A stretch of DNA of 32,408 nt, taken from positions 1 through 32,408 of the forward strand of contig JAKCEX010000012.1 in NCBI GenBank assembly GCA_023539395.1, in the 5' to 3' direction. How positions within the stretch are numbered: position 1 is the stretch's first letter; each line of letters starts with the position of its first letter. Source of the stretch: Candidatus Geocrenenecus arthurdayi (GTDB taxonomy: Archaea; Thermoproteota; Nitrososphaeria_A; Caldarchaeales; Wolframiiraptoraceae). This document shows positions 14,238-21,697 of this stretch, one piece after another. A program made the position numbers and the translations under genes. The notes under the pieces are model-generated. The model was not told the DNA's origin and ran no database searches. It saw only the letters and a list, made by a program, of their open reading frames with translations.

Positions 14238-16193
14238 CTACCCAAATATCTTCCGACCAGTCTCAGGGCATGTCTTATAATAGGGTATTTCTTCAAGTTT
14301 CCTGTGGAATGATTCGCTTCTCAAGGTTTCTATAAACCTCTCTACGCTTTCTTTTGATAACCTATCTTTCCTGACTGCAAAGTCAAAGTATTCTTCTGCT
14401 AGTGGGATGAAATCTAATCCATAGAGTTCTGCAACGTATCCTACAGCTATCCCTACATCAGCTCTCCCTTGAGCAACTGCAGAAGCCACGGCTGTATGCG
14501 TTTTAACTTCGTAAGTATACCCTCTAATCTTCTTCTCAGGTTCTCCTACTCCAAGTTCTGATAACTTTATGTCTAGAAATGTTCTGACACCTGAGCCTTT
14601 TACTCTATTTACAAATATGACGTCTTCTCTTAAGATATCTTCTATTTTCTTGATATTCTTAGGGTTTTCCTTAGCTATTACGAGACCTATTGTTCTTATG
14701 TATCCTCTGTAGATCTCCACCTCATTCTCTAAACCCATCTTCCTAGGCATGTGGATATTATATTTACGTGTTTCAGGGTCTAGTAAATGCGTTCCAGCAA
14801 TATCTGCTTCACCCCTCTTTAATGCTCTCCAACCTGAGAATGAGCCTACATTAACCTGTTTAGCATCCCATAATCCAGCTTCATCTAGAAGAATGCTGAG
14901 AGCTGGACAATTACTTCCAACGATAGAGATGCTGGGAATCTTCAATGGTTGGAATAGTTTCACTGCAACTTCTTCATCTTCAGATAGATATTGTTTCTCT
15001 TCTTCAATATCTATGAAGCCATCAGCTATTGATAATGTTGTAGCTGCACCAGAATCTCCTAATACTGGGTAGGCTATGAGCCCCTCCGCTGAGCTTAATA
15101 CCTGGACTGGGATGAGATGTCTTCTACCTTTTCCCGTCTCAATTCTTATAGGTATCTTTGCTTTAACAATATTTTCTTCTCCAAAACTCTGCATCCCCAT
15201 CATCTTCATAATGATAGGTTTAGCTAGAACCATGAATACCATCATAGCTGAGAGGGGGAATCCAGGTAAACCTATCAGTAGCTTATTATCTTCTGTAGCA
15301 GCTATAACGGTAGGTTTACCTGGCTTAATCTTTAACCCATGTATGAGTACTCCTCCAAGTTCTTCGAATACTCTATAGATTATATCTCCAAACCCAGCCG
15401 AAGTACTACCTGAAGTTACAATTATATCGTATTTTTCTAATGCTTTTTCGATGGATTTCTTGATAACTATATAGTTGTCAGGTAAGATACCGTGGAAATC
15501 AACTTTTACACCTAAATCTTTCAACATTGCTGATATAGCATGACTGTTAACATCATATATTTTGCCTGGCTTGAGCTTCTCTGATATGGGAATTAACTCA
15601 TTACCTGTTGAGAATATAGCTACTCTAGGTGTAGCATAGACTTTAACCTCACTGCATCCCACAGCTGCTAGAGCACCCATCTCCCTAGGACCTATTCTTC
15701 TACCTCTCCTCAATATCAAGTCTCCAATAGATGCATCAGACCCTGTTTGCGCAATATTCTCCCCTGGAGATACACCTCTATAAACCAGTATGTCTCCGTC
15801 TTCAGTTTTAGTATACTCTACCATGACTACAGCATCTGCTCCACGAGGTATCGGTGCACCTGTAGATATCTCTACGCATGTTCCCCTATAAATCTCTATA
15901 TTTGGTATGTCTCCGACCTCAACTTTACCTAATAGTTTTAGCTTAGCAGGGTTTGCTTCATCAGCATTGTATGTGTCTTCAGCTATAACTGCATACCCAT
16001 CTACTGTACTCCTATCAAATGGTGGGGAGTCAACACGTGCATAAACATCTTCTGCAAGGATACGACCGTAAGCATGGTGTAGTGGGACAGACTCTATACC
16101 TAGAGGTTTAATCCCTCCCATTTTTTCATCAATAATTCTAAGAGCTTCTTCGAGAGATACAAGTTTATGGAAAACTAACGCCATCCTATTCAC
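14238..16193 (-). CDS. moeA: MoeA-like molybdopterin molybdotransferase fused to a C-terminal periplasmic-binding-protein-like domain
   Basis: N-terminal MoeA (DSPPFDRSTVDGYAV, EISTGAPIPRGADAVV, STGNEL, TSGSTSAGFGD, GLPGFPLSA). C-terminal IVGSNCPALSILLDEAG...RGEADIAGTHLLDPETRKYN...GRADVGIAVGYVAELYGLDFIPLAEEYFDF. Confidence 0.92.
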   Translation of the reverse strand: MNRMALVFHKLVSLEEALRIIDEKMGGIKPLGIESVPLHHAYGRILAEDVYARVDSPPFDRSTVDGYAVIAEDTYNADEANPAKLKLLGKVEVGDIPNIEIYRGTCVEISTGAPIPRGADAVVMVEYTKTEDGDILVYRGVSPGENIAQTGSDASIGDLILRRGRRIGPREMGALAAVGCSEVKVYATPRVAIFSTGNELIPISEKLKPGKIYDVNSHAISAMLKDLGVKVDFHGILPDNYIVIKKSIEKALEKYDIIVTSGSTSAGFGDIIYRVFEELGGVLIHGLKIKPGKPTVIAATEDNKLLIGLPGFPLSAMMVFMVLAKPIIMKMMGMQSFGEENIVKAKIPIRIETGKGRRHLIPVQVLSSAEGLIAYPVLGDSGAATTLSIADGFIDIEEEKQYLSEDEEVAVKLFQPLKIPSISIVGSNCPALSILLDEAGLWDAKQVNVGSFSGWRALKRGEADIAGTHLLDPETRKYNIHMPRKMGLENEVEIYRGYIRTIGLVIAKENPKNIKKIEDILREDVIFVNRVKGSGVRTFLDIKLSELGVGEPEKKIRGYTYEVKTHTAVASAVAQGRADVGIAVGYVAELYGLDFIPLAEEYFDFAVRKDRLSKESVERFIETLRSESFHRKLEEIPYYKTCPETGRKIFG

Positions 16194-16254
16194 CTTTAAA
16201 GTATCTTAAAAGGTTAATATTTCTATATCCTAAATAATCTTTTTTACACCCTAA

Positions 16255-17553
16255 TTAAGTTTGGTTGCCATGTATTACTGGATCGAATAATTCTACTTCT
16301 ACTTCTTCTCCTTCATCGTATCCTTCTAGGTTTTCAGGGATAACTAATAATCCATTAGCTTCTGTTAATGTTGAGATTAACCCTGACCCAGTCAATCTTA
16401 ATGGTTCAACAATATAGCTATCTCCATACTTTACTAATCTTACTCTAACGTAGCTCCTCATGCCTGAGAGTGATGCTACCCGTCTTTTAAGTCTTCCAAC
16501 AATCTTCGGGGATGGCTCACTTCTGGTACCTAGCAGCGCTTCTATAGTTGGTTTCACGAATAGGTTAAAACCTATTAAAGCTGCCACTGGGAAGCCTGAG
16601 AGCATGAATACAAGCTTATCTCTAACTAATCCAAAGCCAGTGGGTTTACCAGGTCTCATAGCCAACCCGTGTACCAATACTTTCCCGATGAGATTGACAG
16701 CTAAGAATACTAAATCTCTTCTACCTATGCTTGTCCCACCAGTAGTTATTAAAGCATCACAATTCTTTAAGCCATCTTCAATCTTCTCTGATATTAATTC
16801 AACATCATCTTCAACTGTACCTAGGTCTACTGGTTCTCCTCCACATGAACTAATCAGCGCTTTCAACATAATCTTTGAGCTATTAACTATTTTCCCAGGC
16901 TTAAGTTCTGAACCTAGCTCAACAAGTTCACTTCCAGTAGAAAGTATTCCTATTCTAGGTTTTGAGAAAACCTTTACATGGCTAATATTGAGGGATGCTA
17001 GAGCACCTATATGCCAAGGCTTAATCCTCGTACCACGCTTCACTACTAGTTCTCCCATCTTAAAGTCTTCCCCTTTTCTTGATACATTCTGGAAAGGATG
17101 AACCTGTTTATACACTTCTACTAATCCTGGTTTAATCTCCTTGGTATCCTCCGCCATTATTACAGCATTAGCATTAAGAGGCAGTGGAGCGCCAGTTGCC
17201 ACTTCTACTGCTTCACCTTTATCAATCCTGAGGGAGCCCGGCTCATCTCCAGGCATTAGAGAGCCTACAATCTTTAACTCTATCGGATTAGATGGAGAAG
17301 CACTGAATGTATCTTCAGCTATGACTGCATATCCATCTACAGCGCTACGGTCAAAAGACGGGATATCGAATGGAGCATAGATATCTTCTCCACAAACTCT
17401 ACCATGCGATTCTAGTAATGGAAGAACTTCAGTATCTTTCTTTTCCTGCTTCTCTAGTACCTCTCTTAATATTTGGAGAGCTTTCTCAACGCTTGTTAAT
17501 CTCTTAAATCCCTCCATCTCCAACTTCATTGCTTCATCTACCCTAGGTTTCAT
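16255..17553 (-). CDS. moeA: MoeA, molybdopterin molybdotransferase (second paralog)
   Basis: FDIPSFDRSAVDGYAVIAEDTF, EVATGAPLPLNANAVIMAEDT, STGSELVELG, TTGGTSIGRRD, GFPVAALIGFN. Confidence 0.92.
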   Translation of the reverse strand: MKPRVDEAMKLEMEGFKRLTSVEKALQILREVLEKQEKKDTEVLPLLESHGRVCGEDIYAPFDIPSFDRSAVDGYAVIAEDTFSASPSNPIELKIVGSLMPGDEPGSLRIDKGEAVEVATGAPLPLNANAVIMAEDTKEIKPGLVEVYKQVHPFQNVSRKGEDFKMGELVVKRGTRIKPWHIGALASLNISHVKVFSKPRIGILSTGSELVELGSELKPGKIVNSSKIMLKALISSCGGEPVDLGTVEDDVELISEKIEDGLKNCDALITTGGTSIGRRDLVFLAVNLIGKVLVHGLAMRPGKPTGFGLVRDKLVFMLSGFPVAALIGFNLFVKPTIEALLGTRSEPSPKIVGRLKRRVASLSGMRSYVRVRLVKYGDSYIVEPLRLTGSGLISTLTEANGLLVIPENLEGYDEGEEVEVELFDPVIHGNQT

Positions 17554-18967: not shown

Positions 18968-19933
18968 CTAGATTGTTGGAGACCCTCGGATGCTCTTTAT
19001 CTCAATGTATCTCTTAGCTATTTTTAATGCTTTTTCAACTACTTTCATTGAGTCTTCTCCGAAGACATAGGTATTAGGTTCTAGACCATAGCCTCCTCTA
19101 TCAAATACTACATCTAGGCTGCCTGCTTTCTTAAACTCCTCCGATATAGATTCTATAACTAGTTCTTCCATGTCTCTACCTACAATAATATTTTTCTCCG
19201 TCTCTGAATATCTTAAACCAAGAGATCTTACTGCTTCTTCAACGACTTCATCAAACTTTAGGTTTATTACTGAATTCACATTATGTGAGTACTTCTTCAC
19301 TGTCAATAGTACTCTTGCTAGATGTCTAGACCCCCCGAATTCAGGTCTACTAACAGCCTTAGGTCTATCACGTAGCACTACTATCCTTCCAGGGATGCCT
19401 GCAATATCTTCTATTGTCTTAGCATCTTTAACTGATTCAACAATGTTTACAGCTACTTGAGGCATTACATTTACAAAATATCTTGCTTCTTCAATCATCT
19501 TTACAGCTCTCTCTAATCTAGCAAGTACTTGGGCTCTCTCAGTATCTTGGAGCTCTATCTTCTTTAAACAGATCTCACAAGTAGAAAGTTGAGGATACAT
19601 CTCTCTATGATAATTGCAGAAGACGCCTCTAGATAGTGAATCTAACCAGAAAGAATACAGTGTTAGAGTAGCTCTAACTGGATCATGGGGAATATCTCTA
19701 GTGATTAGTTTAGTTAAAGAAGTTATTTCATCCACGCTTAACCCCATATCTACTAGTGATTTAACATATGTATCCTTAGGTTTCGAAAGGATCTGACTTA
19801 TAGCAGACTGGGATAAACCTAGGATAGATGCAATCTTTAGTTGGCTATACCCTGTAGAATAAAGTTCATAAGCTACCAATCCCCTGATAGCAGGTAAGAA
19901 GGTCTTAGCCATCATCTCACATGGAGGCATCAT
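18968..19933 (-). CDS. thiR: ThiR-like regulator: COG2522-type HTH plus C-terminal ThiN-like domain
   Basis: GYSQLKIASILGLSQSAISQILSKP HTH; CNYH...CEIC; C-terminal ThiN-like FGGSRHLARVLLTVKKYSHNVNSVINLKFDE...LDVVFDRGGYGLEPNTYVFG. Confidence 0.82.
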   Translation of the reverse strand: MMPPCEMMAKTFLPAIRGLVAYELYSTGYSQLKIASILGLSQSAISQILSKPKDTYVKSLVDMGLSVDEITSLTKLITRDIPHDPVRATLTLYSFWLDSLSRGVFCNYHREMYPQLSTCEICLKKIELQDTERAQVLARLERAVKMIEEARYFVNVMPQVAVNIVESVKDAKTIEDIAGIPGRIVVLRDRPKAVSRPEFGGSRHLARVLLTVKKYSHNVNSVINLKFDEVVEEAVRSLGLRYSETEKNIIVGRDMEELVIESISEEFKKAGSLDVVFDRGGYGLEPNTYVFGEDSMKVVEKALKIAKRYIEIKSIRGSPTI

Positions 19934-20067
19934 CTCCCTCCACCACCCACTAGATAAGACATACTTCCTTTTATTTTGAATTAAAGTTGGAGTATGAGAA
20001 GGTAATGTTGGGTACGCTGTAGAAATAAAAAACTTAAGTAAAAGTTGGGATAGTCATTGTTGAAGAA

Positions 20068-21225
20068 ATGACAAAGAAACAAGAAAATTCTAATGAAAGA
20101 AACTGTAAAACTGTAGCAATAAGTATAGGTGTAGTTTCTGGAATAATCGCCTCTCTTTGTTGTTTAGGACCAGTTTTCATTATTCTACTAGGGCTAAGCA
20201 GCCTCAGCGTAGCCATCAGTATAACCCAGTATAATCCATACTTTCTCATATTAAGCTTCATCTTTATGGCTGGTGCAATCTGGGTTTACTTAAGAAAAAA
20301 GAATCAAGGATGCTGTAATCTTAATGTAATAAAGAAAAATAGGAACTTCATATCTTTAGCAGCTATAACGATGGTTCTCTTCTATGTAGTAGCTCTTTAC
20401 GTTTTATTGCCAGCCATTACCCCTCACATCTATGGTATCGCCAGTAAAAATGTAGGAATACAAACTTCAGAAAAACTCAGACAAGTTACCTTAGAGATAT
20501 ATGGAATAACGTGTCCTAGCTGTGTTAATGCAATAGAATCATTATTAAAGCAGAAAGAAGGCGTAGTCAACGCAAGCTTTAACTATTTTCAGGGTATTGG
20601 TGAGGTAGTTTATGATCCATCAAAGATAACCATTGATGATATAGTAAAAGCTATCCAGCCCTACAGGGTAACATTAATCGAAGATAAGGAGTTTAGCAGA
20701 AGGCAAGAGACAGCTATTCAAAGCTTTGTCCAGGCACTACCGCAAGCAACATATACAATCACTGAAACCAGCGTAAAAACAGATTCCATGACCACAACGG
20801 TAGCTACCGAGACTAGTACAAAGTTTCCAAAAGCACCCAGCTTCCAGCTTAGAGAATATGGCTCAGACAGGATTGTAATGCTAGAAGACTTTAAAGGCAA
20901 GCCAGTATTCCTAGAGTTCTTCTCACCATACTGTCCAGTCTGCTTGTCCATGATACCTATAGTCGAGCAGCTATACGAGAAGTATAGAGATAAAATAGTA
21001 TTCGTAATAATATCTTACGGTGATGTGGGAGAGGTGAAAGACATTTATGAGATTAAACCGATAATACTTGTAGATGATGGGAAAGTATTCGCGAAGTATG
21101 GTGTGAGAAGTGTGCCGAAATTCTATATACTCGATAGAGAGCACAGGATTATATGGAGTGGAGCTGGGAAAATGGATATCGAAGAGCTTGAGTTAGCTCT
21201 TAGAAGCATCTTTAAAACTGAGTAG
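20068..21225 (+). CDS. Three-domain fusion: MerT-like membrane domain, heavy-metal-associated (HMA) domain, TlpA/thioredoxin-like domain
   Basis: MerT-like GIIASLCCLGPVFIILLGLSSL and three TM helices; HMA VTLEIYGITCPSCVNAIESLLKQKEGVVNASFNYFQGIGEVVYDPSKITIDDIVKAI; Trx APSFQLREYGSDRIVMLEDFKGKPVFLEFFSPYCPVCLSMIPIVEQL...YGVRSVPKFYILD. Confidence 0.88.
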   Translation: MTKKQENSNERNCKTVAISIGVVSGIIASLCCLGPVFIILLGLSSLSVAISITQYNPYFLILSFIFMAGAIWVYLRKKNQGCCNLNVIKKNRNFISLAAITMVLFYVVALYVLLPAITPHIYGIASKNVGIQTSEKLRQVTLEIYGITCPSCVNAIESLLKQKEGVVNASFNYFQGIGEVVYDPSKITIDDIVKAIQPYRVTLIEDKEFSRRQETAIQSFVQALPQATYTITETSVKTDSMTTTVATETSTKFPKAPSFQLREYGSDRIVMLEDFKGKPVFLEFFSPYCPVCLSMIPIVEQLYEKYRDKIVFVIISYGDVGEVKDIYEIKPIILVDDGKVFAKYGVRSVPKFYILDREHRIIWSGAGKMDIEELELALRSIFKTE

Positions 21226-21459
21226 CACCTCCTATATATGTCCTTGATATCTCTTTTCTATCCCCCTAAGCCTAGGAAAAGGTAAAAAGACTTCAAGCAA
21301 TCCATAAAATCTACATACATGTGAGATACAGACTATGAAATATTCTGAAACAAACTCTTTCGGAATGAAGCTGAGTTGTAAGCTAGCAAGACCTCACGGC
21401 ATTATTTATGGCCCACGGCGGGTTATATGGCTTGAAGCGAAACCCCCCTTTCTTCTCTA

Positions 21460-21483
21460 AGTATATTACTTAGTATATTACTT
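21460..21483 (+). repeat. 12-bp perfect tandem duplication of a TATA-like element (AGTATATTACTT x2)
   Basis: agtatattacttagtatattactt; lies 53 nt upstream of the S14 start. Confidence 0.75.
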
Positions 21484-21535
21484 AAATAATGCTGGTCCTT
21501 TTTGATGGGATGATTGAAGGAGGTTTCGTAGCGGG

Positions 21536-21697
21536 GTGAAGCATAAGCCACCGAAGGATAGGAAGTTCGGTAAGGGAGTTGTGAAGTGTAAGAGGTGCGG
21601 AACGACTGTAGGAGTTATTCGAAAGTATAAACTCTATCTATGTAGGAGATGTTTCAATGAGGTAGCACCAAGCTTAGGCTTCAAAGTCTATGAATAA
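21536..21697 (+). CDS. rps14: Ribosomal protein S14 (zinc-binding type), 53 aa, GTG start; absent from the ORF track
   Basis: (V/M)[52 protein letters not shown]: archaeal S14 with CxxC...CxxC. Confidence 0.93.

Follow-up and report, generated by a model that had tools for sequence, protein, structure and literature searches.

We have identified an archaeal gene that encodes a MerT-like three-helix membrane domain, an HMA domain, a linker rich in Thr and a thioredoxin (Trx) domain of the ResA/TlpA type, in this order, in a single polypeptide of 385 residues. The gene lies on the plus strand at 20068-21225 of the window, which is the whole stretch of 32,408 nucleotides that was analysed (bases 1-32408 of contig C50). 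MerT-HMA fusions are already known (MerTP) and exported thioredoxins are common, and only the third domain of this protein is new. The two halves of the fusion have traceable, separate origins, and metal handling and exported disulfide chemistry would be joined by it in one chain. We consider it about an even chance (roughly 0.5) that the protein is a MerTP-type handler of a soft thiophilic metal that carries an exported Trx partner on a tether, and that the fusion arose in one species.

Domain architecture of the fusion protein

The open reading frame is continuous, starting with ATG at 20068, containing no stops and ending with TAG at 21225, and the order MerT, HMA, linker and Trx over the complete frame is given by sequence, Pfam and NCBIfam. 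A sequence-only reading of this DNA had proposed a three-domain fusion of 385 residues, and this fusion is confirmed as real by the intact frame and by Pfam matches to MerT, HMA and Redoxin/AhpC-TSA/thioredoxin; the motifs that it quoted (SLCCLGP, GITCPSCVNA and SPYCPVC) are all present. The cysteines of the protein are residues 13, 31, 32, 82, 83, 149, 152, 289 and 292, and every metal-binding cysteine expected of MerTP is retained.

The MerT-like domain covers residues 14-113 (20107..20406, plus strand) and was delimited by PF02411, hydropathy and charge count, the hydrophobic stretches lying near residues 22-40, 57-75 and 95-113. When the N-terminal 136 residues were searched alone, PF02411 matched with 35.7 bits (E 1e-8); the score was 35.5 bits in the six-frame genome search and 32.8 bits on the whole 385-residue chain, the last just under the gathering cut-off of 32.9 bits. 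MerT similarity of the N-terminal region, on which the sequence-only reading had staked its claim beforehand, is seen in the profile match as well as in an archaeal MerT-HMA homologue from genome G537. As in MerT, three transmembrane helices are found with a vicinal cysteine pair in the first, Cys31-Cys32 in SLCCLGP (20158..20163, plus strand), which is identical in the G537 homologue. A second MerT-type pair, overlooked in the earlier reading, is Cys82-Cys83, in the loop that connects helix 2 with helix 3 (20311..20316, plus strand), of which only Cys83 is retained in the G537 homologue. The spacing of this pair is unlike that of classical MerT. Lys and Arg number six in the loop from helix 2 to helix 3, four at the N-terminus and zero in the loop between helices 1 and 2; by the positive-inside rule, the domain would be oriented N-in/C-out, with the HMA and Trx domains outside.

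The HMA domain, at residues 141-198 (20488..20661, plus strand), matches PF00403 (E 1.6e-9), carries its CxxC as CPSC at 149-152, and shows the beta-alpha-beta-beta-alpha pattern in the predicted model. Together, the first two domains match the NCBIfam MerTP fusion model (NF033556) over residues 21-197 with E 1.6e-27. On the one hand, the protein resembles MerTP in having a MerT three-helix domain followed by HMA. On the other hand, its 96 bits (96.3) fail the curated equivalog cut-off of 180 bits, the nearest plasmid MerTP proteins are only about 21-26% identical, and the fusion has an extra C-terminal Trx and no mer operon. Two further families are similar in part: the MerT/CopZ fusion-like heavy metal transport selenoprotein (NF045683) shares the order of MerT and HMA, and the UxxU metal-binding (seleno)protein (UxxU_metal_bind, NF041115) is the best single-HMA model of NCBIfam, at 50.8 bits. 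However, the fusion falls well below the cut-offs of both, has cysteine instead of selenocysteine, and carries the Trx domain that they do without.

A Thr/Ser-rich linker, seen in the sequence at residues 211-253 (20698..20826, plus strand) and with low pLDDT at 224-249, leads to the Trx domain at residues 255-381 (20830..21210, plus strand), which was assigned by Pfam, the AlphaFold2 model and Foldseek. Pfam matches to Redoxin, AhpC-TSA and thioredoxin cover residues 255-370 with E values from 3e-11 to 6e-8, and Foldseek gave as the best PDB matches ResA and similar thiol-disulfide oxidoreductases of the exported kind, with TMt values of 0.81-0.89. The profile match, the CxxC, the cis-Pro and the fold are those of the ResA/TlpA type; the active-site CPVC at residues 289-292 (20932..20943, plus strand) was placed from the sequence and an alignment with 26 relatives. 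In the AlphaFold2 model, built from 22 sequences, pLDDT is mostly 92-98 for Trx and about 71-89 for HMA, the MerT helix bundle is moderate, and the linker is disordered. The placement of the domains relative to each other is not resolved at a pTM of 0.45, so that the model gives no answer on whether the cysteine pairs face each other, and a separate model restricted to MerT-HMA was not good enough for use (pLDDT 62).

A species-specific insertion between thiR and rpS14

The gene occupies a species-specific interval (19934..21535, plus strand) of 1602 bp, compared with 192-244 bp in three congeners (G001, G003 and G004), where the same neighbours flank a gap with no comparable gene. In a fourth congener, G002, this arrangement is not kept in the stretch read. 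Upstream lies a divergent ThiN-domain regulator gene of the thiR type (18968..19933, minus strand; PF10120 E 3.9e-47), 66-79% identical in the congeners, and downstream lies rpS14 (21536..21697, plus strand), followed by rpS8 (PF00410) and the rest of the spc operon. The reading frame is distant from the window ends, and the locus is a species-specific insertion, not a contig-end product. At the insertion borders, no mobile element was recognised and only short repeats of chance type were seen; GC3 is 0.31 in one half of the gene versus 0.42 in the other, a sample too small to use.

A join of separate genes during sequencing had been named beforehand as a finding that would count against the fusion. 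The genome was assembled in 82 contigs, and an artefact of assembly could in this case have joined two genes. However, the gene lies in a single contig with both flanks collinear with the three congeners, two false joins plus a linker in the right frame, all within 1.6 kb, would have to be assumed for a chimera, and the Trx half is of the genus type, yet only 41-43% identical to the resident paralog. We therefore consider an artefact extremely improbable and the least likely of the rival explanations. Elsewhere in the same window, two adjacent moeA-type genes (14238-17553, minus strand) were seen, the first of which has an extra C-terminal domain that, by eye, resembles a periplasmic-binding-protein-like module.

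Separate origins of the two halves

The Trx half belongs with the genus. When 27 Trx proteins were placed in a maximum-likelihood tree, the fused Trx grouped with five zf-TM-Trx proteins of the genus in a six-row clade supported at 100/99, within which the order is partly unresolved. All five species of the genus have this protein, which consists of zf-C2H2, one membrane helix, a Thr/Ser-rich linker similar to that of the fusion and the Trx domain, and a VKOR gene directly adjoins it (L002:1276-2372, L006, L007, L009 and L010). The source genome keeps its own zf-TM-Trx-VKOR pair, on contig C56. Considering the position in the genus clade together with this retained pair, the fused Trx is, as judged from the tree, an additional copy of the exported disulfide partner native to the genus, minus the zinc finger and the membrane helix. 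By the same comparison, the module was not acquired with the transporter and derives from the organism's VKOR-linked Trx family. Its likeness to exported thioredoxins of the ResA/TlpA/CcmG type, and especially to the zf-C2H2-TM-Trx proteins, covers the fold and the ancestry of the C-terminal part; however, the fusion has MerT-HMA in place of the zinc finger and membrane helix, CPVC instead of CxHC, and thiR and rpS14 as flanks with no adjoining VKOR. A C2H2 zinc finger N-terminal to the membrane helix of an exported Trx is odd in itself, and the VKOR-linked Trx of the congener G001 (L010:172-834) has CGHY, its second active-site cysteine being lost.

The third motif residue is His in 23 of the 26 Trx relatives (C-x-H-C, or CGHY in G001) and Val in the fusion, which retains both cysteines and the cis-Pro. 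VKOR oxidises exported Trx-like partners and passes the electrons to quinone (PMC4555120). Among thioredoxins, a third-position His is associated with the high-potential DsbA type, and its introduction into an archaeal Trx increased the potential by 66 mV (PMC4395160). As the motif was not the chief determinant of Trx potential in the same study, inference from CPVC is weak.

These data bear on a rival explanation, in which the fused Trx is still an oxidase-side partner of VKOR and MerT-HMA is a borrowed anchor, with metal handling secondary or lost. The closest relatives of the Trx are indeed VKOR-linked, both cysteines and the cis-Pro are kept, and the ancestral anchor has been swapped for another membrane segment. 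However, MerT and HMA retain all of their metal-binding cysteines, a MerT-HMA unit occurs alone with an arsR gene in G537, the fusion no longer has the oxidase family's typical His, and the organism retains an intact Trx-VKOR pair of the ancestral type. We regard an oxidase-side role as unlikely.

The MerT-HMA half has a different distribution. PF02411 exceeded its cut-off in one of the 44 genomes of the class and in one of the 398 genomes sampled across the phylum, in both cases the source genome. Among 257 genomes of another class, one real relative was found (G537; 28.3 bits), a protein of 230 residues (L087:1141-1833, minus strand) that is the nearest front-half relative found, with 37% identity over 203 residues and a BLASTP E value of 1e-45 in a single comparison. 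On the one hand, it resembles the fusion across MerT and HMA, with CC in helix 1 and CPSC in HMA. On the other hand, it ends after HMA with no Trx, has one loop cysteine, and adjoins an arsR gene that is absent at the fusion. Its gene overlaps this ArsR-family HTH gene (PF01022, E 2e-17) by 4 bp, forming a two-gene arsR-merT-HMA operon (L087:1141-2141; G537:C1, about 497144-498141, minus strand), and merA was not recognisable among the ORFs read within about 8 kb. The other seven genomes of its order are without a MerT-HMA gene. We take the G537 locus to be a MerT-HMA module that is linked to ArsR and otherwise stands alone.

A third class, represented by 400 genomes, gave just weak matches to other Cys-bearing membrane proteins. 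The plasmid MerTP proteins are distant (Runella 21% and Hymenobacter 26% identity), and this distance together with the sparse occurrence indicates, at the level of sequence, that the front half is an archaeal MerT-HMA subtype of scattered occurrence, likely spread by lateral transfer. Weak matches in G022, G039, G215, G628, G645 and G887 (about 24 bits or lower) were judged on reading to be other membrane proteins, and that in G252 contains a stop. In G022, which is of the same order as the source genome, a weakly MerT-like membrane protein with a SYSCCAAG segment is encoded immediately 5' of a Trx gene (WCPSC) of the same orientation (L081:4425-5757), which may be a parallel case of a CC membrane protein paired with Trx. 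A weakly MerT-like membrane family of 275-291 residues with PCC(A/G)APGYMP and GCPTCAGS was seen in three genomes of one genus (L088, L089 and L090).

The complete order of MerT, HMA and Trx was absent from the plasmid records, viral contigs and genomes searched, where the fusion occurs in one species, and it was not found in literature searches of open-licence papers. A scan of genome contigs, made with a single-sequence query of low reach, gave as its sole match a weak HMA match in a Bacillus, and the viral contigs held no relative of the fusion protein. Orthologs may exist outside the sets searched. As no ortholog with the same three domains was found within them, selection on the fusion is not measurable. 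In this situation, it has to be weighed whether the fusion is young, near-neutral and limited to one lineage, with independent domains or a decaying Trx: the fusion is confined to a single species and its Trx branch is the longest of the genus clade (1.16). However, the frame is intact, the CxxC, the cis-Pro and the cysteines of HMA and MerT are all kept, and the Trx fold is modelled with high confidence, and we consider near-neutrality unlikely.

Possible function of the fusion

The sequence-only reading had noted no merA, merB or merR nearby, and none was seen among the neighbouring ORFs of the window. It had also supposed a stand-alone module, which agrees with the lack of merA beside the gene and with the identity of the sole strong MerA match in the genome as an LpdA-type protein. 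The genome-wide search for mer genes covered MerA, and no credible mercuric reductase was found in this genome, which is 94% complete. The best TIGR02053 match (358.9 bits, cut-off 454) was rejected as a lipoamide dehydrogenase (LpdA-like), as its gene lies between lipA and lipB and the C-terminal cysteine pair is missing, the protein ending in ...FKPIHMLVK without CC.

In classical systems, MerT and MerP move Hg(II) inward via Cys-to-Cys transfer. Considering that Hg(II) import would be harmful without MerA, handling of Cu(I) or Zn(II), or sensing and sequestration, would be as likely as mercury resistance. The arsR overlap in G537 points to a metal- or thiol-responsive role for MerT-HMA. Two archaeal MerT-HMA proteins without a recognised adjacent merA, one with arsR and one with an added Trx, suggest from their gene content a metal-handling role outside mercury reduction. 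The roles of MerT and MerP in mer systems were reviewed in a 2012 survey (PMC3466566), which found MerT in no archaea and MerP in a single archaeon and argued that differences in the cell wall make membrane and periplasmic mer functions unexpected in archaea.

As a MerTP-type metal handler, the protein would act as a stand-alone unit whose cysteines are probably held in the reduced state by the Trx, within a compartment where disulfides are formed. Cys149 and Cys152 of the outward-facing HMA domain would bind the metal; from there it would pass to Cys31-Cys32 of helix 1 and be received by Cys82/Cys83 at the inner face. As this organism forms disulfides outside the cell, the HMA and MerT cysteines exposed on that side would be prone to oxidation, and the Trx, flexibly tethered outside the membrane, would act in the same compartment as the VKOR-Trx pair and keep these cysteines reduced, for which a Trx without the oxidase-type His would be suited; alternatively, it may release mixed disulfides and metal adducts. 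Such a protein could have originated when a sporadic-type archaeal MerT-HMA gene was joined, in one species, to a copy of the ectodomain of the genus's VKOR-linked Trx, which would then have lost the His from its motif. Counting against this explanation are the lack of an ortholog with all three domains, the weakness of the inference from CPVC and the moderate confidence of the modelled membrane part; in addition, no dedicated reductant for the extracellular Trx was identified, and the G537 homologue has kept just one of the two loop cysteines.

That single loop cysteine also bears on a possible DsbD/ScsB-type relay of thiols across the membrane, in which the MerT cysteine pairs would carry reducing equivalents rather than metal out of the cytoplasm to the outer HMA and Trx. 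By analogy only, cysteine pairs in a membrane helix, an inner loop, an outer soluble domain and Trx resemble the DsbD layout, in which a membrane Cys pair, an extracytoplasmic Cys-pair domain and Trx are held in one chain. However, MerT is known as a Hg(II) transporter, the membrane domain, MerT-like in the fusion, has no detected homology to that of DsbD/ScsB, with no DsbD/CcdA similarity in Pfam and NCBIfam searches, and the G537 homologue has just one loop cysteine. We consider a relay of this type quite unlikely. The related idea of a non-homologous archaeal counterpart of DsbD/ScsB, in which a relay on a MerT scaffold would move reducing equivalents or metal-thiolate to the extracellular Trx, is also quite unlikely.

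In another contig of the source genome (G000:C51, L003:633-1698), a polytopic membrane protein of 227 residues, CcdA-like by eye and with no Pfam or NCBIfam match, is followed by an HMA protein of 74 residues (CAGC), which is possibly a second membrane-plus-HMA pair in this organism.
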